This document shows, in pieces, positions 5,790 through 31,729 of a stretch of DNA of 45,573 nt. Numbering within the stretch: the first letter of the stretch is position 1; every line of letters starts with the position of its first letter. Where the stretch lies: contig JAIPUZ010000049.1 in assembly GCA_022833215.1 (NCBI GenBank), positions 1 through 45,573 of the forward strand, in the 5' to 3' direction. The position numbers were made by a program, and so were the translations under genes. Below the pieces are notes generated by a model. The model ran no database searches. It had not been told where the DNA came from and saw only the letters and a list, made by a program, of their open reading frames with translations. Origin of the DNA: Mesorhizobium sp. Lineage in GTDB: Bacteria; Pseudomonadota; Alphaproteobacteria; Rhizobiales; Rhizobiaceae.

Positions 5790-6036
5790 TTATACGCTCC
5801 CATTTTCAGAGTGGGCGAGAGTTATACTTTCGTGCGATGCCCACCCATCTCGCAGAAAGCCAACTTTGCCTATTTCATGGCAGTTGTCACGTCGATTCAA
5901 CTTTGGCCGGAGTGTCGCTGCGGCACCGACGACGAACGCACATCGACGCCTTTCTTGCACGCCCCGGCACGGCGTTGTGTCACGCCGTTCTTCCGGAGCC
6001 TGCATGGATCTGTGCTGCATTCGTACGCCCGGTCTC

Positions 6037-6384
6037 CTAGCTTTTCGAACGCCAGCTCAATGGCGACACTTTTTCGTAAAGCCAGCTATACTGGGTCACC
6101 ATCTGGTTGGTGCGCGTGTAGCGGTAGCCGAGAAAGCCGAGCAGCATCAGGATGAGGGTGTCGACCAGATAATATTGCGGGCTGAACATGGTGCCGTTGA
6201 ACAGCGCGTGGTGGATGAAGCGAACGGCGAGGCCCAGCCCCATCAGATAGAAGAACAGCGCCAGCGGCTGCCGCCATGTCTGCGCGCAGGCCCTGCCGGT
6301 CATCCACGCGGCCCAGCCGCCAAGCAGGCAGGTAACGAAGAAGAACTGCCAGACCGACGGCTCCTCATAGAGAATGCCTTGCAT
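6037..6384 (-). CDS. DUF6867 small membrane protein of the liv operon
   Basis: This 115-aa integral membrane protein has about three hydrophobic segments: WQFFFVTCLLGGWAAWMTG (about 12-30), LALFFYLMGLGLAVRFI (about 41-57) and YLVDTLILMLLGFLGY (about 72-87). A basic, polar C-terminus (YRYTRTNQMVTQYSWLYEK) follows. I recall it as the DUF6867 family, found beside branched-chain amino-acid transporter genes in Hyphomicrobiales; no function is established. It follows livF by 100 bp and precedes livJ, all on the minus strand. Conserved position suggests an accessory or assembly role for the Liv complex, but that is inference. Short ORFs on the opposite strand here lack family character. Confidence 0.8.
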   Translation of the reverse strand: MQGILYEEPSVWQFFFVTCLLGGWAAWMTGRACAQTWRQPLALFFYLMGLGLAVRFIHHALFNGTMFSPQYYLVDTLILMLLGFLGYRYTRTNQMVTQYSWLYEKVSPLSWRSKS

Positions 6385-6484
6385 TATGCTGCCTCCCGAC
6401 TTTGCGCGAGCCCATCTGGCTCCGGCCGCAGTTCGAACTTCCAGTTTCTGCGGAACGCCGAAGCCCGGCGCCCCGGTCGCGGTC

Positions 6485-7213
6485 CTAGTGCCGGCCGCCT
6501 TCCAGATAGGCGGCGCGCACCTCCGGATCGGCCAGCAATTCCTTGCCGCTGCCGCTCATCGTCACCCGGCCGTTGACGAGCACGTAGCCACGATGGGCGA
6601 GCTTGAGCGCGGCGAAGGCATTCTGCTCGACAAGGAACACGGTCAGCCCTTCGGTGCGGTTCAGTTCGCGAATTGCATCGAAGATCTGCTTGACGATCAG
6701 CGGCGCAAGACCGAGCGAGGGTTCATCCAGCAGAAGAAGCTTCGGTCGCGCCATCAGGGCCCGGCCGATCGACAGCATCTGCTGTTCGCCGCCGGACAGG
6801 GTGCCGCCGCGCTGGGCCAGCCGCTCCTTGAGGCGGGGGAACAGGGTGAACACCTTCTCCACGTCCTCATCGAAATATCTGAGCTTGTCGAGGCTGGCGC
6901 CCATCTGCAGGTTTTCCAGCACCGTCATGCGCGGGAAGATGCGCCGGCCTTCCGGCGACTGCGCGATGCGAAGCCGCGCGATTTCATGGGTCGGCAACTG
7001 CGTGATGTTGGTTCCCGCAAAGCTGATGGTGCCCGAAGACGCCCTCGGCGTGCCGAAAATGGTCATCATCAGCGTCGACTTGCCGGCGCCGTTGGCGCCG
7101 ATCAGCGCGACGATCTCGCCCTCGCTGACACTGACATTGACCCCGTTGAGTGCCTGAATGTTTCCGTAGAAGGTTTCGACGTTCCTGACGTCGAGCAACG
7201 GTGCCGTGGACAT
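6485..7213 (-). CDS. livF: Branched-chain amino-acid ABC transporter ATP-binding protein LivF
   Basis: This 242-aa cytoplasmic ATPase energises uptake together with LivG. Walker A GANGAGKST is at 39-47, a Q-loop region follows at AQSPEGRRIFPRMTV, the signature LSGGEQQ is at 139-145, Walker B LLLLDEP is at 159-165, and the switch region is FLVEQNAFAAL, with Gln-Asn in place of His as is usual for LivF. Its ATG shares one base with the livG TAA stop (TAATG), so translation is coupled. It ends 100 bp before the DUF6867 gene. Length and motif order match LivF; the LivF/LivG split is clear because the neighbouring ATPase carries the LivG features. Confidence 0.96.
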   Translation of the reverse strand: MSTAPLLDVRNVETFYGNIQALNGVNVSVSEGEIVALIGANGAGKSTLMMTIFGTPRASSGTISFAGTNITQLPTHEIARLRIAQSPEGRRIFPRMTVLENLQMGASLDKLRYFDEDVEKVFTLFPRLKERLAQRGGTLSGGEQQMLSIGRALMARPKLLLLDEPSLGLAPLIVKQIFDAIRELNRTEGLTVFLVEQNAFAALKLAHRGYVLVNGRVTMSGSGKELLADPEVRAAYLEGGRH

Positions 7214-8673
7214 TATTTGCGCCCCCCGCGCTTGGTTGCCGGTCCGGATGCGGCCTTTCGGGCGAGAGCCTTCGCCTGACCGATCCAGTCTTCGCGGGCG
7301 ATGCGACCGTCAAAGGCCAGATAGGCTTCCGCAGCCGCGATGTCGGCCTTCTTCCATGCTGCGATCTGGTCGAAATGGTAGATGCCGTGGGCGTTGAGCT
7401 TCTTCTCGTTGACCGGTCCGATTCCCTTGATGAGCTGGAGATCGTCCGCCTTGCCGCCGCGTGGCGCGGACATACGGTTCGAGATGCCCTGTTCCTTGCC
7501 GTCAGCCGCCCCGCTCTTCGCCGAAGCGCCCTTGGCAGGGGTCCGGGACGGCTCCGCCCTGGCCGCGGCGCCCTTCCTGCCGGGTCCGGCCGCGCCGGCG
7601 GTGGCCGCCGTCTCGGCACGTCCTGCCGCCTTCGCGGCAGGTTTGGCGGCAGCGGGTTTCTCCGCCTTCACCCTTTGCGCCTTGCCGGCTCCCTTTTCGA
7701 CCGTCACACGCTCGCCGTTGCCGTGAACGACGGTGTCGCTCAGGGGCCCGGCCAGCATGGACGCCGAAGCCTCGGGCCCGTGCTCGGTGTCGGGGCCTGT
7801 ATCGAGCTGCTCGATGACGTCCTCGTCGCCGACCTCGATCAGCACCTCCTCGACCTCCTCGTCGTCCACGCCGAGATAGGCGGCGATGACGCTCGGATCG
7901 GTGCGCACCTCTTCCGGCGTTCCGTCGGAAATCTTGCGGCCATATTCCAGCACCACGATGTGGTCGGAGATTTCCATGACCACGGACATGTCGTGCTCGA
8001 TCAGCAGGATCGACGTGCCCGTAGTGTCCTTGATGTCGTTGAGCAGGGCATTCAGCGCCAGCGATTCCTTCGGGTTGAGGCCGGCTGCGGGCTCGTCGAG
8101 GCAGAGCAGTTCGGGATCGGTGCACATGGCGCGCGCGATCTCCAGCCGGCGCTGGGCGCCGTAGGGGAGATCGCCGGCCGGGTCGTCGGCACGGTCGATC
8201 AGATCCGCCTTCTCAAGCCAGTGCCTCGCCTTCTCGGTCGCCTCCGCGGCTGCCTGCGGATAGCCGCCGACGCCGAACAGGCCAAGGATCGTGTAGCCCG
8301 AGGCTTTCATCAGCTTGTTGTGCTGGGCCACCAGCAGGTTCTCCAGAACCGTCATGCCCGAAAACAGGCGGATGTTCTGGAACGTGCGCGCCACCTTGGC
8401 CCTGGCCGTGATCTGGAAGTCCGGCATGCGCTCAAGCAGGAACTCGTTGCCCGCGCGTCCGGTGAAACGGATCATGCCCTCGGTCGGCTTGTAGAAGCCG
8501 GTGATGCAGTTGAACACGGTGGTCTTGCCGGCCCCGTTGGGACCGATCAGGGCGGTGATCTCGCCGCGCCGCACATCGAAGGACAGGTCGCCGATGGCCA
8601 CCAGCCCGCCGAACTTCATCGACAGATGCTCAACCCGCAGGATCGGCATCGCTGTTGTGGTCGTCGCGCTCAT
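7213..8673 (-). CDS. livG: LivG-type ABC ATPase fused to a C-terminal helix-hairpin-helix domain
   Basis: This 486-aa protein has two parts. Residues 1-270 are a complete LivG ATPase: Walker A GPNGAGKTT (44-52), LivG-type signature LPYGAQRRLEIARAM (169-183), Walker B LLCLDEPAAGLNP (189-201), switch His in LLIEHDMSVVM. Normal LivG is about 250-290 aa and ends here. The tail starts with an acidic stretch (DDEEVEEVLIEVGDEDVIE), then an Ala/Lys/Gly-rich low-complexity linker to about residue 405, then a compact domain (410-472) beginning DDLQLIKGIGPVNEKKL and ending EDWIGQAKALAR, a helix-hairpin-helix type. The start is ATG 8673, overlapping the livM stop (TGATG); the longer frame upstream lies inside livM. 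The tail's role is unknown; the ATPase part is certain. Confidence 0.93.
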   Translation of the reverse strand: MSATTTTAMPILRVEHLSMKFGGLVAIGDLSFDVRRGEITALIGPNGAGKTTVFNCITGFYKPTEGMIRFTGRAGNEFLLERMPDFQITARAKVARTFQNIRLFSGMTVLENLLVAQHNKLMKASGYTILGLFGVGGYPQAAAEATEKARHWLEKADLIDRADDPAGDLPYGAQRRLEIARAMCTDPELLCLDEPAAGLNPKESLALNALLNDIKDTTGTSILLIEHDMSVVMEISDHIVVLEYGRKISDGTPEEVRTDPSVIAAYLGVDDEEVEEVLIEVGDEDVIEQLDTGPDTEHGPEASASMLAGPLSDTVVHGNGERVTVEKGAGKAQRVKAEKPAAAKPAAKAAGRAETAATAGAAGPGRKGAAARAEPSRTPAKGASAKSGAADGKEQGISNRMSAPRGGKADDLQLIKGIGPVNEKKLNAHGIYHFDQIAAWKKADIAAAEAYLAFDGRIAREDWIGQAKALARKAASGPATKRGGRK

Positions 8674-10238
8674 CAGCCGTGCCCTTCCTTGGTGAACGAA
8701 CCCGCGACTGCCTTGCGTTCCTTCAGGAAGGCGGTCGGCTCGCGACTGCCGACGAAACCGCGCGGCTTCCACACCATGACGATGACCATGGCAGCGCCGA
8801 AGAGCAACATGCGGTAAAGCTCAGGCGTGAAGTCCGCGCCGAAAATCTGCTTGAGGAACTGCATCTCGCGCAGGATTTCGGTGCCGCCCACCATGACGGC
8901 CGCCGCCACCGCAATGCCACCGAGCGAGCCCATGCCGCCGAGAACCACGATGGCCAGGATGATCGCCGACTCCAGGAAGATGAAGGACTCGGGGCTGACG
9001 AAACCCTGCCGCGCGGCAAAGAAGGAGCCGGCGAAGCCGCCGAACATGGCGCCGATGGCGAAGGCGGTCAGCTTGGTGGTCGTGGTGTTGATGCCGAGCG
9101 AACGGCAGGCGATCTCGTCCTCGCGCAGCGCTTCCCATGCCCGCCCGACCGGCAGGCGGCGCAGGCGAATGGTGACATAGCCGGTCAGCACGCACAGCGC
9201 CAGGATGAGATAGTAGAGGAAAATCTTGTAGTAGGCGCCCGACTGGGCGATGCCGAGGACCTTGGAGATGTAGTTCGGGTCCGAGACGTTGAACGATATC
9301 ACGCCGAAGAAACTGACCTTGGGAATGCCGGAGATGCCGGCCGCGCCATTGGTGACCTCGCGCCAGTTGATCAGCACCAGCCGGATGATCTCGCCGAAGG
9401 CCAGCGTGACGATGGCCAGATAGTCGCCTCGCAGGCGCAGCACCGGAAAGCCGAGGATGACGCCCCACATGGCGGCCATGGTGCCGGCGACCGGCAGCAG
9501 GATCCAGAACGACCAGCCGAACTGGGTGCCGAGCAGCGCATAGGAATAGGCGCCCACCGCATAGAAGGCGACATAGCCGAGGTCGAGCAGGCCGGCGAGG
9601 CCGACCACGATGTTCAGGCCCCAGGCCAGCATCACGTAGATGAGGATCTGGATGCCGAAATTGTCGACCCACTTCAGCGAGCCCTGGAACCCGAACAGCG
9701 AAACCATCACGACGGGATAGATCAGCAGGATGGTGAAGCCGAGCGAATAGGAATGCGCGCCGATGAAGCTGCGGAAATAGAAGATCGCCCAGGCGACCAC
9801 ATAGATGATCGCGGCAGCGCGCAGCAGGCCGACATAGGCGCCCCAGTAAGGCCCGACGGCGGCCTGCAGGCTGTTGCCGAACAGGAGCAGGCCGGCAGCC
9901 ACCACAAGGCCGATCACCAGATTGGGCTTGCTGAAGAACCGCAAGGCGAAGGCGGTCGGCAACTGCCCTGTGCTTGCGTTGACCGTCTTCTGCGCCACAA
10001 GGAACGGCGTCAGGTAGACGACCTGCAGGAAGCGCACGACAGCGGCGATCACCACCACCGTGGCGAGCAGATAGGGACGCGGCACCAGAACCAGCTCGTT
10101 GTGGATGTTCTGGTCCGTCTTCAGGCCCACCAGCAGGACGAACATGAAGAAGGCGATGACGGCTGCGTAGAATGCCTCGCGCAGCCCGGCAGCGATGGTG
10201 GCGCTGCCAGCGGACTTTTTGGTTTCAGCCATGGCCAT
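8673..10238 (-). CDS. livM: Branched-chain amino-acid ABC transporter permease LivM
   Basis: This 521-aa inner-membrane permease pairs with LivH to form the channel. The C-terminal ~300 residues are the conserved permease core: LAWGLNIVVGLAGLLDLGYVAFYAVGAY in pieces, the LRLRGDYLAIVTLAFGEIIRL segment, the cytoplasmic coupling loop GRAWEALREDEIACRSLGIN, and ILAIVVLGGMGSLGGI. The first ~200 residues add extra membrane segments (DUF3382-type N-terminal region found in long LivM). It starts 4 bp after the livH stop (3-bp gap) and its stop overlaps the livG start, so the operon is tightly packed. The long plus-strand frame through livM/livH is a GC-rich shadow. Confidence 0.95.
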   Translation of the reverse strand: MAMAETKKSAGSATIAAGLREAFYAAVIAFFMFVLLVGLKTDQNIHNELVLVPRPYLLATVVVIAAVVRFLQVVYLTPFLVAQKTVNASTGQLPTAFALRFFSKPNLVIGLVVAAGLLLFGNSLQAAVGPYWGAYVGLLRAAAIIYVVAWAIFYFRSFIGAHSYSLGFTILLIYPVVMVSLFGFQGSLKWVDNFGIQILIYVMLAWGLNIVVGLAGLLDLGYVAFYAVGAYSYALLGTQFGWSFWILLPVAGTMAAMWGVILGFPVLRLRGDYLAIVTLAFGEIIRLVLINWREVTNGAAGISGIPKVSFFGVISFNVSDPNYISKVLGIAQSGAYYKIFLYYLILALCVLTGYVTIRLRRLPVGRAWEALREDEIACRSLGINTTTTKLTAFAIGAMFGGFAGSFFAARQGFVSPESFIFLESAIILAIVVLGGMGSLGGIAVAAAVMVGGTEILREMQFLKQIFGADFTPELYRMLLFGAAMVIVMVWKPRGFVGSREPTAFLKERKAVAGSFTKEGHG

Positions 10239-10241
10239 GGG

Positions 10242-11144
10242 TCAGACCTTTTCGACTTCCGGCCGGCCGAGAATGCCGGAGGGCATGAAGATGAGCACGA
10301 TGGCGAGGATCGAGAAGGCCGCCACATCCTTGTAGTCGATGGAGAAATAGGCCGACCAGATGCTCTCGATGAAGCCGATGGCGAGACCGCCGAGCACCGC
10401 GCCCGGTATGGAGCCGATGCCGCCGAGCACCGCTGCCGTGAAGGCCTTTACGCCGGGCACGAACCCGTCCGAGAACACCACCACACCATAATACATGAGG
10501 AACAGCGTGCCGGCGACGGCAGCCAGCGAAGCGCCGATGATGAAGGTGATGGAAATGGTGCGGTCGACATTGACGCCGAGCAACGCGGCCATCTTGCGGT
10601 CCTGCTCGCAGGCGCGCTGCGCCCGCCCGAGCGACGTCTTGTTGACCACGTACCAGAAGATGACGAGCAGCAGTGCCGTGACCACCACGATGATGATCTG
10701 CTTCAGCGAGATCGAGACGCCGTATACATTGTAGACCTTGCTGACCATCGGCGGGATCGGCTTGTTGCGCGGACCCTGCGTGACCTGCACGAAATTGGAC
10801 AGCACGATCGACATGCCGATGGCCGTGATCAGCGGCGCCAGCCGGAAAGAGCCGCGCAGGGGGCGGTAGGCGATCTTCTCGATCACCCAGTTGTAGAGGC
10901 TCACCAGCAGCATGGAGACGATCATCATGATCAAAAGGGCGGCGGCGACCGGCACCGAGTAGAACATCGCGCCGAGGATCAGGAACACGATCAGGGCGGT
11001 GAAAGCGCCGACCATGAAAATGTCGCCATGAGCGAAATTGATCATGCCGATGATGCCGTAGACCATCGTATAGCCGATCGCGATCAGGCCATAGATCGAT
11101 CCCAGCGTCAGCCCGTTGATAAGCTGCTGGATGAAGTATTGCAT
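10242..11144 (-). CDS. livH: Branched-chain amino-acid ABC transporter permease LivH
   Basis: This 300-aa inner-membrane permease is the first gene of the livHMGF-DUF6867 operon. Start MQYFIQQLINGLTLGSIYGL and the following IAIGYTMVYGIIGMINFAHGD are diagnostic of LivH. The coupling loop RACEQDRKMAALLGVNVDR and the GGIGSIPGAVLGGLAIGFIE segment are also present. About eight hydrophobic helices are expected. AGGGGAG stands 10 nt before the ATG. Upstream is a 611-bp gap shared with a divergent GntR gene, which must hold the operon promoter. The substrate follows from the binding protein livJ at the far end of the cluster. Confidence 0.96.
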   Translation of the reverse strand: MQYFIQQLINGLTLGSIYGLIAIGYTMVYGIIGMINFAHGDIFMVGAFTALIVFLILGAMFYSVPVAAALLIMMIVSMLLVSLYNWVIEKIAYRPLRGSFRLAPLITAIGMSIVLSNFVQVTQGPRNKPIPPMVSKVYNVYGVSISLKQIIIVVVTALLLVIFWYVVNKTSLGRAQRACEQDRKMAALLGVNVDRTISITFIIGASLAAVAGTLFLMYYGVVVFSDGFVPGVKAFTAAVLGGIGSIPGAVLGGLAIGFIESIWSAYFSIDYKDVAAFSILAIVLIFMPSGILGRPEVEKV

Positions 11145-11755
11145 ATTTAAGCGGCTCCCCTGGAATGTCGCCGGACCAGGCGCATTCCTTTTCGTCGTTC
11201 CCCTAGTGGTACGGTTTCAAGTCCGGATTGCAACTCCATTTTTTGTTCTTTTACGCGACTTTGGGATGAGATCGGCCCCTCATCGCGGGAGTTGTTTCCT
11301 GTTGGCAGGTCAGGGCGGAACCTATCATCGGCCCAACGCAATGTCATTGATGTTTTTGGCGATATTTCTCCTGTTTGGGAAAGGAATAACCGAGATTTGA
11401 GGTTATTTTGAATGATCCTTGTGAAGGGAGGAAACGCCGAACCTCTGCGCCTATGCATGTCCGAACCACGAAACGGGCCCGATCACAATTCCGCAACGTA
11501 AGTCGTGAAGGCATTTTCCTGCTCAAACCGGAGCCAGTGTACAGGGGCGGAACGGACCGGGTCGCCAAAGCTCGGCCACGGCCCCGCGGCCGAACCGGAT
11601 GAAATTCGGCATCCCGCCTTCCCCACCACGATCCTTTCGGATTTCCTGCCGGTCGATCATTCCGGGAAGCCCTCCCATCTCCTTGTTCTTCCAGTGAGAT
11701 ACGACAGATATATCTGTGGACGACATGATCCGGCGAAAGAATGAACTGGTGATAT
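11145..11755. other. Long divergent intergenic region between livH and a GntR gene
   Basis: This is 611 bp without a convincing gene. Small frames in it lack family character and have no good ribosome site. It must contain the leftward liv promoter and the rightward GntR promoter. Visible elements are a 6-bp hairpin GATGAG/CTCATC (11265-11270/11279-11284) and the ACAGATATATCTGT palindrome listed separately. AT-rich patches around 11236-11255 and 11341-11412 look promoter-like, but I cannot assign -35/-10 boxes with confidence. Confidence 0.6.
11704..11717. promoter_or_regulatory. Perfect 14-bp palindrome upstream of the GntR gene (operator candidate)
   Basis: ACAGATATATCTGT is a perfect palindrome 39 bp before the GntR start codon at 11756. 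Its place suggests autoregulation by the FadR-subfamily GntR protein encoded next to it. The symmetry is seen directly; the regulator assignment is inference. Confidence 0.55.
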
Positions 11756-18014: not shown

Positions 18015-19034
18015 TCAGGAAATCTTCGGCGCGGCGGTGGTGCCGCGCACTTTCAGCGTGGTGGGCAGGATCACCGGCTTCCGTGGCGCGGGCGCACCGG
18101 AAAGCATGTCGAGCAGCATGCCCATGGCCCGTTTGCCGATCTCGGCGCGCGGCTGCGCAACCGTGGTCAGCGGCGGAAAGAAGGCTTCGCTCAGATAAAG
18201 ATCGTCGAAGCCGACGACCGACACATCACCCGGCACGTCGCGGCCCATGCGGCGCAATTCGTGGATCGCGCCGAAGGCCATCTCGTCATTGGCGAGGAAG
18301 ATGGCGGTGGGCGGCTCGGGCAGCGCCAGCAGCCGGCGGCAGGCGTCGCGGCCCGATTGCAGCAGATAGTCGCCGCGCGGCTCATACCCCTCGGGAACCG
18401 GCAGGCCGGCCGCCTGCATGGCGGCGCGATAGCCTTCCCGGCGGCGCACGCTCATCTCCTCCGGCACCGGCCCGCAGACATGGGCGATGCGGCGGTGGCC
18501 GAGCCCGACCAGATGCTCCACCGCCTGCATGGCTGCCGCCGCGTTGTCGATCTGGACATGCGGGAAGCCGACGCCCTCGATCATTTCCAGCGCCACCACC
18601 ACCGGCAGGTCCGCCGAGAGGTGGCGGCGAAAGTCCGGCGTCGAGGGCAGCGAGCCGGTCATCAGGATCATGCCGTCGGCATGGCCGTCACGCAGCATGT
18701 CGAAATATTCGGTCTCGCGCTCGGGGTCGTTCTCGGCATTGCCCATCAGCACGGCATAGCCGGCGGCGCGCGCCGCCGCCTCCACGCCCTTGACCACATC
18801 GAGATAGAAGGGGTTGCCGATGTCGCGCACCACCAGGAGCACCGCCATGGAGCGGCGGGTGCGCAAATTGCGGGCGCTGACATTGGGCCGGTAGTTGAGC
18901 GCGCTCGCCGCCTCGCGGATGCGCGACAGCGTCGGCTCCGCCACCAGCCCGGTATCGGCCAGCGCCCGCGACACGGTGGCCGGCGAGACGCCGAGGCGCT
19001 CGGCAATGTCCTTGATCTTCGGCCGCCTTGTCAT
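18015..19034 (-). CDS. LacI-family transcriptional repressor of the sugar operon
   Basis: This 339-aa protein has the N-terminal LacI helix-turn-helix and hinge (KIKDIAERLGVSPATVSRAL, then RIREAASALNYRPNVSARNL). A periplasmic-binding-protein-like effector domain follows (MAVLLVVRDIGNPFYLDVVKG; HADGMILMTGSLP; AIFLANDEMAFGAIHELRRMG; VSVVGFDDL). The start is ATG 19034; the longer frame lies in the permease gene. It sits inside the ABC operon, 8 bp after a permease stop and 27 bp before the Gfo/Idh gene, so the repressor is co-expressed with what it probably controls. Its likely operator is the palindrome at 23620-23633. Confidence 0.94.
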   Translation of the reverse strand: MTRRPKIKDIAERLGVSPATVSRALADTGLVAEPTLSRIREAASALNYRPNVSARNLRTRRSMAVLLVVRDIGNPFYLDVVKGVEAAARAAGYAVLMGNAENDPERETEYFDMLRDGHADGMILMTGSLPSTPDFRRHLSADLPVVVALEMIEGVGFPHVQIDNAAAAMQAVEHLVGLGHRRIAHVCGPVPEEMSVRRREGYRAAMQAAGLPVPEGYEPRGDYLLQSGRDACRRLLALPEPPTAIFLANDEMAFGAIHELRRMGRDVPGDVSVVGFDDLYLSEAFFPPLTTVAQPRAEIGKRAMGMLLDMLSGAPAPRKPVILPTTLKVRGTTAAPKIS

Positions 19035-19042
19035 GAGACCGG

Positions 19043-22545: not shown

Positions 22546-23571
22546 TTACTTGAACAGCGCCTCGGCGTCCTCGATCGACAGCGCGCTTGTGTAGGAATAG
22601 TAGCCCGGCTTGCCTTCGAGCTGCTTCGCCGCTTCCTCCAGGTTCGAGCTGTCGATGAACGGGATCGGCAGGTACATCGCGTTCTTGTACTGGCCCGCTT
22701 CCGCCGGCTCCTTCAGCTCCTTGCCCTGCAGCATCAGCACCGCCACGTTGAGCGCCGAGGCCATGACGCCGGGCGGGTTCACCGACGCGCCGGAGTTCAG
22801 CTTGTCCTTGGTCCACAGGTCGATGAAGTCCTTGCGGATCTCGCCGGTGGCGGCGATGGAATCGGTCTTGCCCGCATCCATGATCGACTTCCACGCACCG
22901 GCGGCCATGCCGTCCTGCACCCACACGCCGTTGATGTCGGGATAGGTGGCGAGCAGGTTCTGCATGGCCTGCTGGCCCTGCGCCTGATCCCAGTTGGCGT
23001 TCACCTCGTTGACGACCTTGATGTCGGGATGCTGGGCGAACACTTCCTTGTAGCCGGCAACGCGCATCTCGTTAGCCGGATGGCCGGCGACGCCGTTGAT
23101 CGCGACCACGTTGCCCTTGCCGTCCAGCGTCCTGGCGAGCCATTCGGCGCCGGCCGCGCCCCACGCCTTCTGGTCGATGCCGACATAAAGCGCATCTGGC
23201 GAGGAGACCTCGGCGTCGGTGGCGATGACGAGGATGCCGGCCTCCTTGGCCTGCGCGAACACCGGATCGAAGGCGGTCGGGCTGTTCGGGTTGATGATGA
23301 TGGCATCGACGCCGGCGCTGATGAAATTGCGCACATGGGCGATCTGGCCGGGCACGTCGACATTGGCGCTCTGCACCTCGACGGTGACGTTGACGCCCTT
23401 TTCCTTCCACGCCTCGGCGGCGGCCTTGGCCTCGTCGATCATCTGCGTGCGCCACTCGGACCCGACCCAGCCGTTGGAAAGGCCGATCTTGAAGTCCTGC
23501 GCGAAGGCGGACACGGTGGAAAAGGCCAGCGCGGCACCCGCGACGGCGGAGAGAATATGCGACTTCTTCAT
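22546..23571 (-). CDS. Sugar ABC transporter periplasmic substrate-binding protein (RbsB-like)
   Basis: This 341-aa protein has a Sec signal (MKKSHILSAVAGAALAFSTV, then SAFAQ before DFKIG) and a type I sugar-binding fold. Features are KIGLSNGWVGSEWRTQMID, VRNFISAGVDAIIINPNSP, VIATDAEVSSPDALYVGIDQ and GVWVQDGMAAGAWKSIMDAG. The start ATG 23571 has GGAGG 9 nt upstream; the longer frame is not needed. It is the first gene of the six-gene operon and is preceded by the operator candidate at 23620-23633. The ligand is probably a pentose, hexose or polyol; I cannot name it. The adjacent Gfo/Idh enzyme supports a sugar or cyclitol. Confidence 0.93.
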   Translation of the reverse strand: MKKSHILSAVAGAALAFSTVSAFAQDFKIGLSNGWVGSEWRTQMIDEAKAAAEAWKEKGVNVTVEVQSANVDVPGQIAHVRNFISAGVDAIIINPNSPTAFDPVFAQAKEAGILVIATDAEVSSPDALYVGIDQKAWGAAGAEWLARTLDGKGNVVAINGVAGHPANEMRVAGYKEVFAQHPDIKVVNEVNANWDQAQGQQAMQNLLATYPDINGVWVQDGMAAGAWKSIMDAGKTDSIAATGEIRKDFIDLWTKDKLNSGASVNPPGVMASALNVAVLMLQGKELKEPAEAGQYKNAMYLPIPFIDSSNLEEAAKQLEGKPGYYSYTSALSIEDAEALFK

Positions 23572-23619
23572 TTGAATTCCTCCCTGGAGCTCAATTTCGA
23601 TAATGAGCTTAGAGGCAAA

Positions 23620-23633
23620 TGAAATCGATTTCA
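23620..23633. promoter_or_regulatory. LacI-type operator candidate in front of the sugar operon
   Basis: TGAAATCGATTTCA is a perfect 14-bp palindrome centred on CG, 49 bp before the binding-protein ATG. LacI-family operators commonly have this form, and the operon encodes a LacI protein. A weaker dyad with the same TCGA centre lies 28 bp closer to the gene (around 23590-23607), and a third, AAAGCG-TT-CGCTTT, lies at 23644-23657. The symmetry is seen; binding is inferred. Confidence 0.65.
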
Positions 23634-23713
23634 ACGGAGATCGAAAGCGTTCGCTTTTTCGTGATTCCGGCATCAGCCGGCGAAAAGAGCGAGGCGCAGA
23701 CAAGGCAGGGCAG

Positions 23714-23840
23714 AAAAAACAACACCCGCCGGGGGAGGAGGTCCGGCGGGTGTCGTATGAGAAGGCCAGCTATCGGGAGGAGGATAATGGCTGGCCTATA
23801 TCCGCCGGGTCTGGGAGGAGGTAGGCCCCGCGGAATTCGA
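23714..23840 (-). ncRNA. Trans-acting sRNA with three anti-Shine-Dalgarno loops (alpha-r14/NfeR1-like, cuckoo-type)
   Basis: On the minus strand three hairpins follow each other, each presenting CCUCCUCCC in its loop. SL1 is 23833-23802 (11-bp stem with two mismatches, loop motif 23821-23813). SL2 is 23797-23763 (8-bp perfect stem GGCCAGC plus closing pair, motif 23783-23775). SL3 is 23753-23722 (11-bp perfect stem ACACCCGCCGG, motif 23741-23733), followed by UUUUUU (23719-23714), an intrinsic terminator. A possible -10 TATCTA lies at 23853-23848, giving about 125-130 nt. The family with three unpaired CCUCCUCCC motifs is recalled as alpha-r14 (NfeR1 of Sinorhizobium meliloti); related cuckoo/CcsR RNAs show the same loop. 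Such RNAs pair with ribosome-binding sites of transport mRNAs. Exact 5' end is inferred. Confidence 0.85.
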
Positions 23841-23885
23841 TGATCAATAGATACCCGCATGGCTCTTTTGATGAAAGGCTCAATT

Positions 23886-23918
23886 TTGCATGGCTGCGTT
23901 GCGTTTTGTGCAATGCAA
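23886..23918. promoter_or_regulatory. Dyad of TTGCAT/ATGCAA half-sites upstream of the sRNA
   Basis: TTGCAT (23886-23891) and ATGCAA (23913-23918) form an inverted repeat, with further TGCAA/TTGCG half-sites between. It lies about 46-78 bp upstream of the inferred sRNA start, a typical activator position. It may be a LysR-type or PhaR-like site; the regulator is unknown. Confidence 0.4.
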
Positions 23919-23997
23919 CATAAACTCCGACTCATATGCGCCCTCGTGTCCGGTCCGGAGCGGGAGCGCATAAGGGATGGCGTTTACGCGGGCAGCG

Positions 23998-25116
23998 TCA
24001 GGCAGCCTTGCCGGTCAGGCTCTGCGCGCCATGGCTGTCCGTTTGCGCATAGGCGCTGCCGAAGCGGTTGGCGAGGAAGGTGTCGAGCGCGATGTCTTCC
24101 TGGCGCACGAAGCCCTGCCGTGGTAGATCGCCGCTCGCCAGCATGTCGAGCACGGCGCAGATCCCGGAAGCGGTGGTGATCTGGATCGCGCTCAGCACCT
24201 TGCCGTTGACACGGCGGCTGTAAACCTTGTTGGCATAGGTCTCCTGGAGCAGACGGCCATCCTTGCGGCCCGACACCGTCACGAAGACGATGACCACGTC
24301 CTGCGTGGTGGCCGGCAGGGCGCTTTCGAATATGTCCTTCAGCACCTCGCGGCGGTGGCGCAGGCCGAGGTCGTTCAGCAGCGCCTTCATGATCGCCGCA
24401 TGGCCGGGGTAGCGGATGGTGCGGTAGTTCAGCGTGCGTACCTTGCCCTTCAGCGTCTCGCACAGCGTGCCGAGGCCGCCCGATGTGTTGAACGCCTCAT
24501 AGGTCACGCCGTCCAGCGAGAATTCCTCGCGTTCTTCCAGCGGCGGAACCTCGACCAGCTCGCCCTCGACGATGGCCTCGCATGGCTCGCAATATTCGTT
24601 GATGACGCCGTCCGTGCTCCAGGTCAGGTTGTAGTTCAGCGCGTTGGACGGGTACTGCGGCAGAGCGCCGACGCGCATGCGCACGCTGTCGAGCGTGTCG
24701 AAGCGGCTGGCGAGATCGGCCGCGACGATGGAGATGAAGCCCGGCGCCAGCCCGCACTGGGGAATGAAGGCGGTCTTCGCCGTCTTCGCCAGCTCCTTCA
24801 CCCGGCGGGTCGAAGCGACGTCCTCGGTCAGGTCGAGATAATGTACGCCTGCGGCAGCGGCGGCCTCGGCGATGCGCGTGGTGAGGCTGAAGGGAGCCGC
24901 GCTCAGCACCGCGAACTTGCCGGCCAGAGCCTTCTCCAGTTCGCCGGGCGCCGCGATATCCAGCTCAAGGCCCGATACGCCCTCGACGCGATCCAGCCCT
25001 GCAAGCTGCTCCGCGGAACGGTCAACGACGGTGACCCGGTAGTCGCCGGTGCCCGCCAGCATGCCCGCGATGGTGGAGCCGATCTTGCCCGCACCGATGA
25101 CGACGATTTCCTTCAT
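23998..25116 (-). CDS. L-lysine 6-dehydrogenase-like protein (saccharopine dehydrogenase family)
   Basis: This 372-aa protein has an N-terminal Rossmann fold (IVVIGAGKIGSTIAGMLAG, GxGxxG at about 9-14). It continues with LSAAPFSLTTRIAEAA, HYLDLTEDV, IPQCGLAPGFISIVAADLA, PQYPSNALNYNLTWSTDG and NTSGGLGTLCETLKGKVRTL. These blocks closely resemble the Agrobacterium lysine 6-dehydrogenase as I recall it. That enzyme oxidatively deaminates the epsilon-amino group of lysine to 2-aminoadipate semialdehyde with NAD+. The start is ATG 25116 (AGAGGGA 6 nt upstream) rather than TTG 25122. It is divergent from an Lrp/AsnC gene, consistent with amino-acid control. Substrate is inferred from similarity. Confidence 0.82.
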   Translation of the reverse strand: MKEIVVIGAGKIGSTIAGMLAGTGDYRVTVVDRSAEQLAGLDRVEGVSGLELDIAAPGELEKALAGKFAVLSAAPFSLTTRIAEAAAAAGVHYLDLTEDVASTRRVKELAKTAKTAFIPQCGLAPGFISIVAADLASRFDTLDSVRMRVGALPQYPSNALNYNLTWSTDGVINEYCEPCEAIVEGELVEVPPLEEREEFSLDGVTYEAFNTSGGLGTLCETLKGKVRTLNYRTIRYPGHAAIMKALLNDLGLRHRREVLKDIFESALPATTQDVVIVFVTVSGRKDGRLLQETYANKVYSRRVNGKVLSAIQITTASGICAVLDMLASGDLPRQGFVRQEDIALDTFLANRFGSAYAQTDSHGAQSLTGKAA

Positions 25117-25219
25117 GGCCAATCCCTCTGTTTCGTGAAACCTGCAGGAATCATCGCCATATCCACGTCGAAAGGAAGGATGCAGTTCGGCAAATCGATG
25201 CTATATTTCAGGCAGTTTC

Positions 25220-26375: not shown

Positions 26376-26857
26376 TCGAAAATCTCCATCAGCAGGGCTT
26401 CGTAACGGTTCTTGATCAGATCGCTCCAGGAGTCCTCGCTCACCACGTCGAGCACATGGATCAGCAGCAGATCGTCGGCGGATCGATACTCGACCCATGC
26501 CGTGCCCGGCGTGCTGGTGATGATGCAGGCCAGGAAGGCAAGTCCCGTCGGGTCGCGCATCTCGAGAGGGATGGCCACGAAACCAGACACCACTTGCGGA
26601 TTCTTGCCACCCAGCACGATACGCGCCACCGCAATGTTGGAGCGCAGGATATCGACGAACACGATGCCCATCAGATGCGCGATCCGGGTCCAGCGGCGCA
26701 GGCGCGGCTTCGAGGGCTGAAGCGCCGACATCATATGCGAGGCGACCAGTGCGATGACTGCGCCAAGCAGCAGATGGCCGGGCGTGAAGCCGTTGAGCAG
26801 CAGCCACATCGCAAGCAGCGATGCGGCCAGCAGCGGATAGGGAAGCACCCGTGTCAT
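26372..26857 (-). CDS. mnhE: Mrp-type Na+(K+)/H+ antiporter subunit E
   Basis: This 161-aa membrane protein has two hydrophobic segments at the N-terminus (YPLLAASLLAMWLLLNGF; HLLLGAVIALVASHM). The conserved cytoplasmic part follows: VDILRSNIAVARIVLGGKN, FVAIPLEMRDPTGLAFLACI, ITSTPGTAWVEY. These are MnhE hallmarks (the TPGT motif). It overlaps mnhD and mnhF by 4 bp each. No anomaly seen. Confidence 0.94.
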   Translation of the reverse strand: MTRVLPYPLLAASLLAMWLLLNGFTPGHLLLGAVIALVASHMMSALQPSKPRLRRWTRIAHLMGIVFVDILRSNIAVARIVLGGKNPQVVSGFVAIPLEMRDPTGLAFLACIITSTPGTAWVEYRSADDLLLIHVLDVVSEDSWSDLIKNRYEALLMEIFE

Positions 26858-28476
26858 TGACCGGCCTCCATCTTTGGCGACGGCACCTGACGGGCCGAAA
26901 GCACGCCCTCGATATAGGCATCCGGCGCGTGCAGCGACTGCGACGTCGCATCGACATAGGCCATCACCGGGCCGGCGTTGATCGTCATGACGACGCACAG
27001 CGCCAGCAGCAGCGCAATCGGCGCGAACTCCACGATCAGAACCCGCGGCACCACACCCTCGATTGGCGGAGCCCAGAAAGTGCGGATGCCGACGCGCAGC
27101 ATGGCGACCATTGCGAACAGGCCGGAAATGATGAGCACCGCGAAGAAGGCCCATGCCATGCCCGAGATGGCGTTGTCATCGCCGGTCGAGAGCGCGGCCG
27201 ACAGAAGGGCGAACTTGCCGATGAAGCCCGACAGCGGCGGCATGCCGGAAAGCAGAAGGCCGCACAGCACGAAGCACAGACCGAGGATGGCCAGCGTGGC
27301 CGGAAGCGTGACCCCCACTTCCTCGACGACCTCTTCTTCTTCCGGATCGTCGCCATAGGCTTCCATGGTCACTGCAAGGATGTTGGCGGCCGGATCCTGC
27401 GAACGATCGACCAGTTCGACGAGCAGGAACAGCGCGCCGATCGTCAGCGTCGAGGAAACGAGATAGAACAGCGCTCCGGCGGTCACCCCGGCGTCGGCCA
27501 TGCCGACGGCAGCCAGAAGCGTGCCCGATGAGACCAGCACGCTGTAGGAAGCGAGCCGCGCCATGGCCTGCGACGCCAGAACGCCGATGGTGCCGAAAGC
27601 CATCGTCACCAGACCGGCGGTGAGCAGGCCGATATCGCCGAAGCTGGCCGAGTCGCCGGCGCGCGCGCCGAGCAGCAGCGGCGAGAGGCGCAGCACCGCA
27701 TAGACGCCGACCTTGGTCATGATCGAGAACATCGCCGCCACGGGGGCGGCGGCGGCCGAATAGGCTCCGGGCAGCCAGAAGCACAGCGGCCACATGCCGG
27801 CCTTGGTCAGGAAGGCAATGCCGAGGATCGCCGTGCCCGCCTCCAACAACGCCCTGTCCTGTGCCGCGACCGCGGGTATGCGCACCGCCAGATCGGCCAT
27901 GTTCAGCGTGCCGGTGACACCGTAGATGAGGCTGACGCCGATCAGGAACAGCATCGAGGCGCCGAGATTGACCACGATGTAGTGCATGCCGAAGCGCACG
28001 CGCGTCGCCCCCGAGCCGTGAAGCATCAGCCCGTAGGATGCGGCAAGCAGCACTTCGAAGAAAACGAAGAGATTGAACAGGTCGCCGGTGAGGAAAGCGC
28101 CGTTCAGGCCCATCAGCAGAAACTGGAACAGCGAGTGGAAATGCTGGCCGCCCTTGTGCCAGCGCGCCAGCGAGAACACGAGTGCGGCGTTCGCCAGCAG
28201 CGCTGTGAGCAGGAGCATGAGCGCCGACAGCCGGTCGACCACCAGCACGATGCCGAAAGGCGCCGCCCAGTTGCCGAGCAGGTAGACGCTGGCCACCGAG
28301 CCCTCGACATCGGCCTGCGCGACGAGCAGCCAGGCGATGACGAGCAGTCCGAGGGTGGACGCGACATTGACCAGCGACTTGAAGGTATGGCGCCGCTCGT
28401 CGAACAGCAGCAGGAATGCGCCGGTGACCAGCGGCAGAATGATCGGCGCTATATCGAGATGATTGGCGAGCTGCAT
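26854..28476 (-). CDS. mnhD: Mrp-type Na+(K+)/H+ antiporter subunit D
   Basis: This 540-aa polytopic membrane protein is related to complex I NuoN/NuoM (proton-translocating antiporter domain). The core includes LFVFFEVLLAASYGLMLHGS, LGASMLFLIGVSLIYGVTG, the key Lys region AFLTKAGMWPLCFWLPGAYS, and AMFSIMTKVGVYAVLRLSP. An acidic loop YGDDPEEEEVVEEVG stands out between helices. The ATG 28476 shares one base with the mnhC stop (TGATG), and the stop overlaps mnhE by 4 bp. The longer frame upstream of 28476 overlaps mnhC and is not used. Confidence 0.95.
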   Translation of the reverse strand: MQLANHLDIAPIILPLVTGAFLLLFDERRHTFKSLVNVASTLGLLVIAWLLVAQADVEGSVASVYLLGNWAAPFGIVLVVDRLSALMLLLTALLANAALVFSLARWHKGGQHFHSLFQFLLMGLNGAFLTGDLFNLFVFFEVLLAASYGLMLHGSGATRVRFGMHYIVVNLGASMLFLIGVSLIYGVTGTLNMADLAVRIPAVAAQDRALLEAGTAILGIAFLTKAGMWPLCFWLPGAYSAAAAPVAAMFSIMTKVGVYAVLRLSPLLLGARAGDSASFGDIGLLTAGLVTMAFGTIGVLASQAMARLASYSVLVSSGTLLAAVGMADAGVTAGALFYLVSSTLTIGALFLLVELVDRSQDPAANILAVTMEAYGDDPEEEEVVEEVGVTLPATLAILGLCFVLCGLLLSGMPPLSGFIGKFALLSAALSTGDDNAISGMAWAFFAVLIISGLFAMVAMLRVGIRTFWAPPIEGVVPRVLIVEFAPIALLLALCVVMTINAGPVMAYVDATSQSLHAPDAYIEGVLSARQVPSPKMEAGQ

Positions 28477-28817
28477 CACGGCTCCCTGCCGTCGACATGG
28501 TCGGAGCCCGTCAGGCCGCGCGCCACCAGCAGCACCACGAGGAAAAGCGCCGTGGTGGCGAAGCCGATGACGATGGCGGTCAGCACCAGCGCCTGCGGGA
28601 CGGGATCTGTATAGGCTGCCGGATCGACGATCCCGGATCCGTCGAGCACCGGCGGCACGCCACTGCGCAGGCGGCCCATGGAGAAGATGAACAGGTTGAC
28701 GCCGTAGGCGATCAGCGACAGGCCGACGATCACCTGATAGGTGCGCGGGCGCAGCAGCAGCCATACGCCGGAGCCCACCAGAACGCCGATGCCCAGAGAA
28801 AGGGTCAGTTCGGTCAT
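28476..28817 (-). CDS. mnhC: Mrp-type Na+(K+)/H+ antiporter subunit C
   Basis: This 113-aa NuoK-like membrane protein has three helices (LSLGIGVLVGSGVWLLLRPR; QVIVGLSLIAYGVNLFIFSM; LVLTAIVIGFATTALFLVVL). The conserved DPVPQALVLTAIVIGFA block is diagnostic of MnhC/PhaC. The ATG 28817 overlaps the mnhAB stop by 4 bp. Length is normal. Confidence 0.95.
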   Translation of the reverse strand: MTELTLSLGIGVLVGSGVWLLLRPRTYQVIVGLSLIAYGVNLFIFSMGRLRSGVPPVLDGSGIVDPAAYTDPVPQALVLTAIVIGFATTALFLVVLLVARGLTGSDHVDGREP

Positions 28818-31729
28818 TGGACCTCCTGCTCGGCCAGGGCTGCGGTCTTGGCGGCGCGCAGCTTGCGGATCGACTGGTGCGCCAGCGCGATCAGCATCAG
28901 CACGGTGGCGCCGAGCACCAGCGCGAAGACGCCGAGATCGAAGAACAGCGCCGTCGCGGCGGGAACCTTGCCGATCACGGGCAGCTCCACATATTGCGCA
29001 TGGGAGGTCAGGAACGGATAGCCCAGCGCCCACGATCCGATCCCGGTCGCGGCAGCGATCAGCAGGCCCCATCCGATCCACTTGACCGGCAGCACCCTCA
29101 GCCGCTCCTCCACCCAGCGCGTGCCGGCGGCCAGATATTGCAGGATGAAGGCGGATGCCAGCGCGATGCCGGCAACGAAGCCGCCGCCCGGCAGATCGTG
29201 GCCGCGCAGGAACAGATAGGCCGACAGCACGACGATGACCGGGAACAGCCACTGCATGATCACCGCAGGCACATACAGATAATCGGCAACGATGGTGCCG
29301 CCTCCCGGCATAGCCACCGGATCGTCCGCCGACTGGTGGCGCTGCTGTTGCGTGGAGCCAACGCTTTCAGGGGCGGGACGGAAACGACGCAGCAGCACGA
29401 AGACGGTGATCGCCACGATGCCGAGCACGGTGATCTCGCCGAACGTGTCGAAGCCGCGGAAGTCGACGAGGATCACGTTGACGACATTGGTTCCTCCGCC
29501 CAGCGGATAGGCGTTCTCGACGAAATAGTCGGCGATGGTCTGCGGCGGCTGGCGCACCATCACCGCGTAGGAGATCATAGCCATGCCAAGGCCGCAGGCG
29601 ATCGCCATGGCGAAGTCGCGATAGCGCCGCAGACGCGACCAGAATGCCTGCACCGGCGTTTCGACATCCGCAAAGCGTTGCGGCAGCCAGCGCAGCCCGA
29701 GCAGGATCAGCACGGTGGTGACCACCTCGACCAGAAGCTGGGTAAGCGCAAGGTCGGGGGCCGACAGCCACACGAAGGTGATGCAGGTGATCAAACCGGC
29801 GCCGCTCATCAGCATGAGGGCGACGAGGCGGTGGAACTTCGCCTGATAGGCTGCCCCGATGGCGCAGGCCATGCCGATGACCCACAGGATGGTGAAAACG
29901 ACGTCGGTGCTTCCCGCGAGCCTGATCTCGGGCAGCAGCGGACCGCGCCACAGCGTCAGGATCGCAGCGATCAGCGCGATGGCGACCATGAGGCGAAGCT
30001 GCGGCTGCAGACGGCGCGTGCCGAGCCAGCCCTCGAGGAAGCGCGCCCAGCGCCACGACACGGTGACCATGACCTGCTCGAAGATGCGCTGGCCGTTGAT
30101 GCGCCGGAAGTACGGCGGTCCTTCCTCGCTGGTCGCCAGATAGGAGCGGATCGTAAGGAACATCAGCGCACCCGCCACCAGCGCCACGATGCTCATCATC
30201 AGCGGCAGGGTGAAACCGTGCCAGACGGCAAGGCTGTAGTAGGGCGTGGAATCGCCGAGCACCGAGACGACGGCGCTGTGCAGATAGGGACCGACGGTGC
30301 GGCCCGGCACAACGCCCACGATCAGGCAGATCAGCACCAGCAGAAACACCGGCAGCCGCATGAAGAAGGGCGGCTCGTGCGGCTCGCGCGGCAGCGGTTC
30401 GGGCGCCGCGCCGAAGAACACGCTGTGGATGAAGCGGATCGAATAGGTCACGGCGAAGGCGCTGGCGATGACCGCCGCGTAGGGCGCGATCGTATCGAGC
30501 CACGAATCGGCATGGTGCTCGATCGCCTCGGCGAAGAACATCTCCTTGGACAGGAAGCCGTTCAGCAGGGGCACGCCTGCCATCGCCGCGCTCGCCACCA
30601 TGGCGAGCGTGGCGGTGATGGGCATGGCGCTGAGCAGGCCGCCGAGGCGGCGCATGTCGCGCGTTCCCGTCTCGTGGTCGATGATGCCGGCGGCCATGAA
30701 CAGCGATGCCTTGAAGGTGGCGTGGTTCATCATGTGGAAGATCGCCGCCACCGCGCCCAGCGGGCTGCCGAGGCTGAGCAGCATGGTGATGAGGCCGAGA
30801 TGGCTGATGGTCGAATAGGCCAGCAGCCCCTTGATATCCTGCTGGAAGATCGAGAAGAACGCGCCCAGCACCAGCGTGATCATGCCGGCAAGACCGACAA
30901 CGAAGAACCATTCATAGGTTCCCGCCAGCACCGGCCACATTCGCGCCATCAGGAAGACGCCCGCCTTGACCATGGTTGCGGAGTGCAGGAAGGCCGACAC
31001 GGGGGTCGGCGCCGCCATGGCGTTCGGCAGCCAGAACTGGAACGGAAACTGCGCGCTCTTGGTGAAGGCGCCCAGCAGGACCAGGATCAGGATCGGCCGG
31101 TACAGATCGTGCTCGCGCAGCAGGTCACCGGATGCCAGCACCTCGTCGAGATCGTAGCTGCCCACCACATGCCCGATCAGCAGCATGCCGCCGAGCAGCG
31201 CCATGCCGCCGATTCCGGTGACGGTCAGCGACATGCGCGCGCCGTCGCGCGCGGCCGCATTGTGATACCAGTAGCCGATCAGCAGGAAGGAGAAGATGCT
31301 GGTCAGCTCCCAGAAGATGACGAGCTGGATCAGATTGCCTGAGAGCACGACACCAAGCATCGATCCCGCAAAGGCAAGGAAGAACATGTAGAAACGCGGA
31401 ATCGGGTCTTCCGGCGACATGTAGTAGCGCGTGTAGATGACAACCAGGAAACCGATGCCGGAGATCAGCATCGCGAACATCCAGGCGAACCCGTCGATCC
31501 GGAAGACAAGCTCCAGCCCCAGTTCCGGCATCCAGCTCACGCTCTGGCGCACGGCATTGCCGGCTGCGATGTCCGGATAGGCCATCATCACCATGATGAG
31601 GATGGCGAGCATGACTGTGCCGGAAAGCCAGGCTTCCGCATTGCGCGCATTGGAGGGCAGCAGCGCGGCGACAGCGCTCGCCACGAATGGCAGCACTATC
31701 ATCCAGATGAGAGTCGCGCCGCCCAGCAT
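28814..31729 (-). CDS. mnhA: Fused Mrp-type Na+(K+)/H+ antiporter subunits A and B
   Basis: This 971-aa protein is the first gene of the operon. The N-terminal two thirds are MnhA/PhaA, related to NuoL: YYMSPEDPIPRFYMFFLAFA, WELTSIFSFLLIGYW, TKSAQFPFQFWLPNAMAAPT with the conserved Lys, HSATMVKAGVFLMARMWP. Then come the C-terminal MbhD/MbhE-like helices (LALTQLLVEVVTTVLILLGL) and a fused MnhB domain (LFPVIVVLSAYLFLRGHDLP, GGGFVAGIALASAFILQYLA). This explains why there is no separate mnhB. Such PhaAB fusions are known in rhizobia. GGAT lies 7 nt upstream of the ATG. A divergent HTH gene starts 88 bp away. Confidence 0.95.
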   Translation of the reverse strand: MLGGATLIWMIVLPFVASAVAALLPSNARNAEAWLSGTVMLAILIMVMMAYPDIAAGNAVRQSVSWMPELGLELVFRIDGFAWMFAMLISGIGFLVVIYTRYYMSPEDPIPRFYMFFLAFAGSMLGVVLSGNLIQLVIFWELTSIFSFLLIGYWYHNAAARDGARMSLTVTGIGGMALLGGMLLIGHVVGSYDLDEVLASGDLLREHDLYRPILILVLLGAFTKSAQFPFQFWLPNAMAAPTPVSAFLHSATMVKAGVFLMARMWPVLAGTYEWFFVVGLAGMITLVLGAFFSIFQQDIKGLLAYSTISHLGLITMLLSLGSPLGAVAAIFHMMNHATFKASLFMAAGIIDHETGTRDMRRLGGLLSAMPITATLAMVASAAMAGVPLLNGFLSKEMFFAEAIEHHADSWLDTIAPYAAVIASAFAVTYSIRFIHSVFFGAAPEPLPREPHEPPFFMRLPVFLLVLICLIVGVVPGRTVGPYLHSAVVSVLGDSTPYYSLAVWHGFTLPLMMSIVALVAGALMFLTIRSYLATSEEGPPYFRRINGQRIFEQVMVTVSWRWARFLEGWLGTRRLQPQLRLMVAIALIAAILTLWRGPLLPEIRLAGSTDVVFTILWVIGMACAIGAAYQAKFHRLVALMLMSGAGLITCITFVWLSAPDLALTQLLVEVVTTVLILLGLRWLPQRFADVETPVQAFWSRLRRYRDFAMAIACGLGMAMISYAVMVRQPPQTIADYFVENAYPLGGGTNVVNVILVDFRGFDTFGEITVLGIVAITVFVLLRRFRPAPESVGSTQQQRHQSADDPVAMPGGGTIVADYLYVPAVIMQWLFPVIVVLSAYLFLRGHDLPGGGFVAGIALASAFILQYLAAGTRWVEERLRVLPVKWIGWGLLIAAATGIGSWALGYPFLTSHAQYVELPVIGKVPAATALFFDLGVFALVLGATVLMLIALAHQSIRKLRAAKTAALAEQEVQ

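Follow-up and report, generated by a model that had tools for sequence, protein, structure and literature searches.

The stretch of DNA considered here, hereafter the window, comprises 45,573 nucleotides of Mesorhizobium sp. and corresponds to contig C49 of a 4.55 Mb assembly in 131 contigs. On its minus strand, positions 23717 to 23840 hold a 124-nt element of three hairpins, recognised by a family match and by its fold as an αr14 (NfeR1-type) small RNA. Upstream of it lies a saccharopine-dehydrogenase-type gene (23998–25122) and downstream a sugar-type ABC operon, with the gene of a substrate-binding protein (Peripla_BP_4; 22546–23571, minus strand, start codon at 23571) that we regard as a candidate local target. 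The setting between a sugar ABC operon and a lysine-catabolism gene, proposed in an earlier note made from the sequence alone, is therefore the one observed, the term "sugar" being a label by similarity because the NCBIfam matches fall under their curated cut-offs. Elsewhere on the minus strand of the window are found a branched-chain amino acid type ABC operon (4671–11216) and an Mrp/NADH-quinone-oxidoreductase-type antiporter gene (26854–28890). In addition, the region 23600–23660, ahead of the sugar-type operon, contains palindromes like AAAGCGAACGCTTT and GAAATCGATTTC, the latter presumably a palindrome of the LacI-operator kind; these are possible sites for the LacI-type regulator encoded at 18015–19040. 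A GAAATCGATTTC-type palindrome also precedes the binding-protein gene in genomes G070, G112, G114 and G006.

The 9-mer GGGAGGAGG is present on the plus strand at 23733–23741, 23775–23783 and 23813–23821, and at no further position in the window. All three sites fall within 89 bases, while shuffling gives an expectation of 0.52 matches per whole window, with three or more, anywhere, in 1 of 100 shuffles. Read on the minus strand, they supply the anti-Shine-Dalgarno motif CCUCCUCCC in the loop of hairpin 1 (motif a, 23813–23821) and the corresponding motifs in the loops of hairpin 2 (motif b, 23775–23783) and hairpin 3 (motif c, 23733–23741), as located by motif search and folding. Specifically, the minus-strand fold of 23717–23840 has an energy of −59.4 kcal/mol, whereas 200 shuffles average −37.9 (sd 3.3), which corresponds to z = −6.5; it places hairpins at 23834–23801, 23797–23763 and 23756–23719 with all three motifs unpaired. 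Hairpin 1 is the weakest of the three in the window copy, its stem being interrupted (5+3+2 pairs). Hairpin 3 runs into a stretch of six U's, from 23719 to 23714, and the segment 23714–23756 is likely to be an intrinsic terminator, as indicated by the fold, the U-run and the covariation of the stem. All together, the three looped 9-mers, the U-tail on the third hairpin and the compact minus-strand structure of about 125 nt that the earlier note had described are borne out by these predictions.

The name αr14/NfeR1, proposed in that note and accompanied by the suggestion of an Rfam search, was confirmed by that search: the ar14 model (RF02344) matches over its whole length, positions 1–123 of 123, with 91.8 bits against a curated cut-off of 58.8 (E 1.5e-15). 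The link to the cuckoo-type RNAs, proposed at the same time, holds only loosely, through the CCUCCUCCC loops in common, as the CcsR1 model (RF02791) gave 40.1 bits in a permissive scan, below its cut-off of 65.3. The ar7, ncr1175, 6C and CC3664 families were likewise discarded in the permissive scan, each falling under its own cut-off, and the window RNA is not among the matches of its own genome to AbcR (ar15, RF02345) at E ≤ 0.01, which are two, on contigs C76 and C98. On the strength of model match and predicted fold, the window RNA is an extra member of the already known αr14/NfeR1 family.

Support for the stems was sought in an alignment of 48 αr14 copies, namely seven window orthologs (the window included), two copies from contig C8 of the same genome, five from other Mesorhizobium arrays, two from Sinorhizobium meliloti, two other solo copies and 30 family loci. 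The alignment yields 19 predicted pairs, located in hairpins 2 and 3, and 17 of them show compensatory (double) changes; 96.6% of the cells are paired, compared to 78.7% in shuffles, and none of 500 shuffles equalled the observed value on any of five measures. Related sequences can beat shuffles without any structure, and a slid control, which preserves relatedness, was included: shifting the partner by 1–3 columns brought pairing down to 36–48%. The covariation named in the earlier note as a check on the stems was accordingly found for hairpins 2 and 3. For hairpin 1, which is poorly aligned and for which no pairs were predicted, folding of single copies was used. Folded singly, each of the three hairpins left at least 7 of the 8 motif bases unpaired in all of the 72 distinct copies, and every fold was better than the mean of its own shuffled stems.

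LsrB and VtlR are orthologous forms of a single regulator. Upstream of the RNA, on the minus strand, a box of the LsrB/VtlR type, CAACGCAGCCATGCA, occupies 23901–23887 and agrees at 14 of 15 letters with the VtlR motif quoted for Brucella, CAATGCAGCCATGCA (PMC12595884, accessible part). The recognition form GCAT-N3-TG-N3-T, given for VtlR in the accessible part of PMC7486931, is found at 23888–23900 on the plus strand. Partly overlapping the box is a TGCA-N6-GCAA element (23899–23912, minus strand; −72 to −59 from the RNA start), which differs by one letter, in GCAA, from the LsrB site TGCA-N6-GCAT at −72 to −60 of S. meliloti NfeR1 (PMC10746234, accessible part). A possible sigma-70 promoter, picked out by eye, consists of CTTTCAT (23877–23871), 17 bases and TATCTA (23853–23848), again on the minus strand; it resembles the S. 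meliloti signature CTTAGAC-N17-CTATAT only loosely (PMC10746234), and its −10 is conserved only in part among the orthologs. A degenerate box pattern, CAAYGCHGCCATGCA, designed after the sites had been inspected, has a single exact match in the genome, at the window box; with up to two mismatches it has 195, compared to 20 for the reversed pattern, so that weak box matches carry little meaning. No box with up to three mismatches was found in the S. meliloti stretch scanned (L220), nor does the 250-base stretch ahead of the window RNA contain an NtrC-type TGC-N11-GCA. In symbiont NfeR1 an NtrC site of this form lies at −101 to −116, and the same paper (PMC10746234), in its accessible part, states that it is not evident in Agrobacterium and Brucella; the site is therefore not family-defining.

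Contig C8 carries a tandem pair of further αr14 copies above the cut-off (86.0 and 86.1 bits; array at L148 10144–10900), in the order box (3 mismatches), two 46-aa DUF1127 frames (Pfam PF06568) and, directly following, the two αr14 copies. All 29 of the other Mesorhizobium array loci inspected, which are the best-scoring copies from 29 of 36 other genus genomes (L009–L037), show, in this same order, a box with 2–3 mismatches, two DUF1127 frames and αr14; across the 63 loci scanned the reversed box has no match. In the Mesorhizobium arrays the VtlR-type box stands about 440 bases ahead of the first αr14 copy, and 2–4 motif clusters are present per array; at the window copy the box immediately precedes the RNA, which is solo, with no neighbouring αr14 copy and with the nearest 1000 upstream bases free of DUF1127 frames. 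Among 30 family loci (L190–L219, the top-scoring copy from each of 30 genomes out of the 114 in the family with matches), a DUF1127 frame lies upstream in only five and a box with up to three mismatches in only eight, which speaks against extending the arrangement to the family at large. The C8 arrangement is of a known kind, because Brucella VtlR reportedly activates DUF1127 genes (PMC12595884) and DUF1127 genes accompanied by CcsR-like RNAs have been published as the CIN1 locus (PMC10253847, accessible part). In S. meliloti CP090106.1, a 3.7-Mb sequence under the title pSymB, a pair of αr14 copies (109.2 and 108.5 bits) stands ahead of two genes annotated as DUF1127, the whole lying between tig and trmFO. 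As a side observation, lone DUF1127 frames on contig C117 (L168) and in two other genomes (L170, L171) are preceded by a 40-base promoter piece similar to that of the window RNA; a 25-base match to it in an order-level genome (L174), in which no DUF1127 frame was seen, was taken as chance.

Five more matches in the genome fall under the cut-off, from 29.1 to 16.2 bits, at a loose limit at which 9 of 14 control genomes also match, none of them above the cut-off. The best, on contig C73 (L004 1501–1589), appears by eye to have two hairpins only; it is flanked by a gene end which we take to resemble a phasin and, on the other side, by a tRNA. A copy in G002 (L152 4766–4881), which also has a phasin-like gene on one side and a tRNA on the other, exceeds the cut-off, unlike its C73 counterpart. 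Among the genomes whose locus was scanned, an αr14 copy above the cut-off adjoins a tRNA in G002, G003, G004, G014 and G031.

A relatives search at E ≤ 0.001 found αr14 in 37 of 37 genus members (G000–G036) and in 46 of all 61 genomes, 37 of the 61 being above the cut-off, and a family sample was matched in 114 of 121 genomes at E ≤ 1e-6 (108 above the cut-off); none of the 14 control genomes matched in either search. For the solo copy, a DNA search with promoter and RNA at E ≤ 1e-20 returned 8 of 146 genus genomes, reduced to 7, the source genome included, after an array copy (G149) had been dropped. This threshold misses remoter solo copies, such as the cassette of similar kind in G007 (contig C615). 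The orthologs (G000, G070, G085, G086, G112, G114 and G006, in genomes of 3.9–4.8 Mb) form two groups whose cassettes are 79–81% identical, with box, RNA and downstream gene kept in both, and they carry single-base insertions and deletions inside the RNA. In six of the seven, G086 being the exception, the binding-protein gene lies downstream on the same strand, 145–376 bases away; the saccharopine-dehydrogenase gene lies upstream in three (G000, G070, G085). The latter was rejected as a conserved partner, since 0 of 109 such loci elsewhere had at least two clustered motifs; these comprise 29 loci (flank ≤ 1.5 kb) and the best 80 of 581 relatives (flank ≤ 5 kb), two sets that may overlap in species, with some loci ending at contig ends and with G070 and G085 outside the 109. 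The best 80 of the 581 relatives of the saccharopine-dehydrogenase-type protein are 82–89% identical to it and come mostly from Mesorhizobium, with a few from Pseudaminobacter or Aminobacter. Separately, a solo αr14 (89.0 bits) was noticed on the mobilizable Mesorhizobium terrae plasmid NZ_CP044217.1 (L221 2501–2704); its cassette shows 71.8% identity over 94% of the query, with a similar upstream region, and has a transposase gene on one side and a gene of the thermonuclease family on the other.

As to targets, the accessible part of PMC8844928 names, in 2022, two validated NfeR1 target mRNAs, both coding for substrate-binding proteins, and nearby transporter mRNAs had been suggested as candidates from the window sequence. 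The ribosome site of the adjacent sugar-type binding protein, GGGAGGA at 23578–23584 (GGGAGGA-N6-ATG), offers seven consecutive bases complementary to the loop, with a pairing energy of −14.7 kcal/mol, and of −14.5 to −15.0 in three orthologs. In a background of 110 ATG-led frames (window, L148, L168), a rough one as it takes the first ATG per frame and lacks the binding-protein start itself, the best value was −14.0 and the median −5.7 kcal/mol. Among 28 coding-like window frames, also a rough set, for which up to six starts per frame were compared and the best one kept, a GTG start at 11978 was best (−16.5) and the binding-protein start second. The branched-chain-type binding protein at 4671–5789 (Peripla_BP_6), probably the gene called livJ in the earlier note, gave −9.6. 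The suggestion is thus plausible for the sugar-type gene and weak for the livJ-type gene. Genome-wide, GGGAGGA-N3-9-ATG has 94 matches compared to 6 for the reversed pattern, two of them in the window, of which one is the complement of the RNA itself; GGGAGGAGG-N3-9-ATG has 6 (control 1), two being complements of αr14 copies. Pairing with GGGAGGA is in fact weak evidence of targeting, because any strong Shine-Dalgarno sequence resembles GGAGG. A later addition to the NfeR1 targets is ntrB (PMC10746234); the frame before ntrC in L222, called ntrB by that position alone, pairs weakly (−10.0). NtrC control together with ntrB targeting was accordingly rejected for the window copy, given the lack of an NtrC-type site and the weak pairing.

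A candidate for the regulator is encoded on contig C76, where trxB is followed by a LysR-type gene and then by an AbcR RNA (L225 1411–3403; L257). The LysR-type gene is of 298 aa, the AbcR RNA (ar15, 51.9 bits) starts about 280 bases beyond it, and in S. meliloti AbcR1/2 are located between SMc01226 and lsrB (PMC8844928); by this neighbourhood, the C76 gene is taken as a candidate LsrB/VtlR ortholog. The upstream region of this AbcR has no box at up to three mismatches and shows the GCAT-N3-TG-N3-T form at −62, GCATGAGTGCGTT. Each of the two AbcR copies of the genome carries, by eye, one CUCCUCCC motif.

In conclusion, we consider it very probable, from the sequence features described, that the locus is a solo αr14/NfeR1-type small RNA gene under LsrB/VtlR-type control, whose loops would silence mainly transporter mRNAs; its likely function would be to repress the translation of transporter mRNAs in trans, after activation by LsrB. 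The box region 23887–23912 is probably the binding site of an LsrB/VtlR-like regulator of the LysR type, which would activate the promoter just upstream of 23840, giving an RNA of about 124 nt predicted to end at its own terminator hairpin. By analogy with S. meliloti NfeR1, the three loops would present CCUCCUCCC to the Shine-Dalgarno sequences of mRNAs, mainly those of transporter genes, blocking ribosome binding and lowering translation, and the adjacent binding-protein mRNA would be a likely target through its ribosome site. The upstream box and the neighbour gene make this a specific and testable case for LsrB-type control and local transporter silencing.

The RNA might instead act mainly in cis, with read-through of the terminator placing the hairpins ahead of the sugar-type operon on one transcript, as its leader; one of the loops would then pair with the binding-protein ribosome site on that RNA. 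The position ahead of that gene, on the same strand in six of seven orthologs, would fit, as would the finding that the saccharopine-dehydrogenase gene is upstream in three of those six loci and was not found in the other three, and so would the sequence of the ribosome site. However, a strong hairpin and six U's intervene between RNA and gene, the gap contains the GAAATCGATTTC palindrome, which suggests a separate promoter for the operon, and G086 has the cassette without the binding-protein gene; we hold this reading to be highly unlikely. It is in our judgement unlikely, too, that the locus is a silent extra copy with no relevant level of expression. The restriction to 7 of 146 genus genomes (E ≤ 1e-20) would be compatible with it, and a Northern blot in S. 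meliloti reliably showed only one of six copies (PMC7143759, accessible part), but box, RNA and downstream gene have been kept across two groups of diverged cassettes.

That the segment is a mere transcription terminator or a protein-coding stretch, with no small RNA, can hardly be credited: a 120-aa frame does span the RNA on the same strand (23609–23971), but single-base indels within the ortholog RNAs would shift it, and two covarying stems, three identical open loops and a full-length family match speak against both versions. A further suggestion, which we offer tentatively and regard as rather doubtful, is that the locus represents a portable LsrB-driven αr14 cassette that left the DUF1127/CIN1 locus and was fixed before the sugar-type ABC operon to serve it as a dedicated redox-to-carbon brake; it also rests on the M. 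terrae plasmid copy beside a transposase gene.

Coming back to the preferred reading of an LsrB-controlled solo gene, the open-access literature covered, outside which most subscription papers lie, gave in its accessible passages no account of this solo copy and no description of the order box, DUF1127 and αr14 in Mesorhizobium. A study of M. huakuii small RNAs cites NfeR1 as background (PMC5596092, accessible part), and a paper on an S. meliloti DUF1127 gene (PMC12218461) mentions neither CcsR, NfeR1 nor LsrB. One genome here provides a natural comparison, encoding αr14 both as a single free unit behind an LsrB-type box and in two copies that end a DUF1127 operon, itself preceded by a similar box. 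In Rhodobacter, DUF1127 proteins have a role in processing RNA, and the comparison could show whether co-transcription with them matters for αr14 RNAs, and also whether the NfeR1 circuit can do without its NtrC arm.

Among known systems, NfeR1 of S. meliloti (RF02344) is alike in its three CCUCCUCCC-loop hairpins, its length of about 123 nt and its terminator-like hairpin 3, as well as in having an upstream region of its own with TGCA-N6-GCA near −72. The window copy differs in that no NtrC-type site was found, in the loose fit of its −35/−10, in the weak pairing with the presumed ntrB frame and in its neighbours, a sugar-type ABC operon and a saccharopine-dehydrogenase-type gene. With CIN1 of Rhodobacter sphaeroides (ccaF1-CcsR1-4), the promoter of which is of the RpoHI/RpoHII type (PMC10253847), the window RNA has the loop motif in common, and the tandem C8 copies of the source genome likewise stand behind two DUF1127 genes; the window copy differs in lacking a nearby upstream DUF1127 frame and a neighbour copy, and in its sub-threshold CcsR1 score. 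Finally, AbcR1/AbcR2 (αr15, RF02345) are trans-acting on transporter mRNAs and contain CUCCUCCC; AbcR1 is activated by LsrB/VtlR (PMC7486931, PMC8844928), and in S. meliloti AbcR is Hfq-bound while NfeR1 is not (PMC8844928). Each AbcR copy of this genome has a single CUCCUCCC, whereas the window RNA exposes its motif in three loops.
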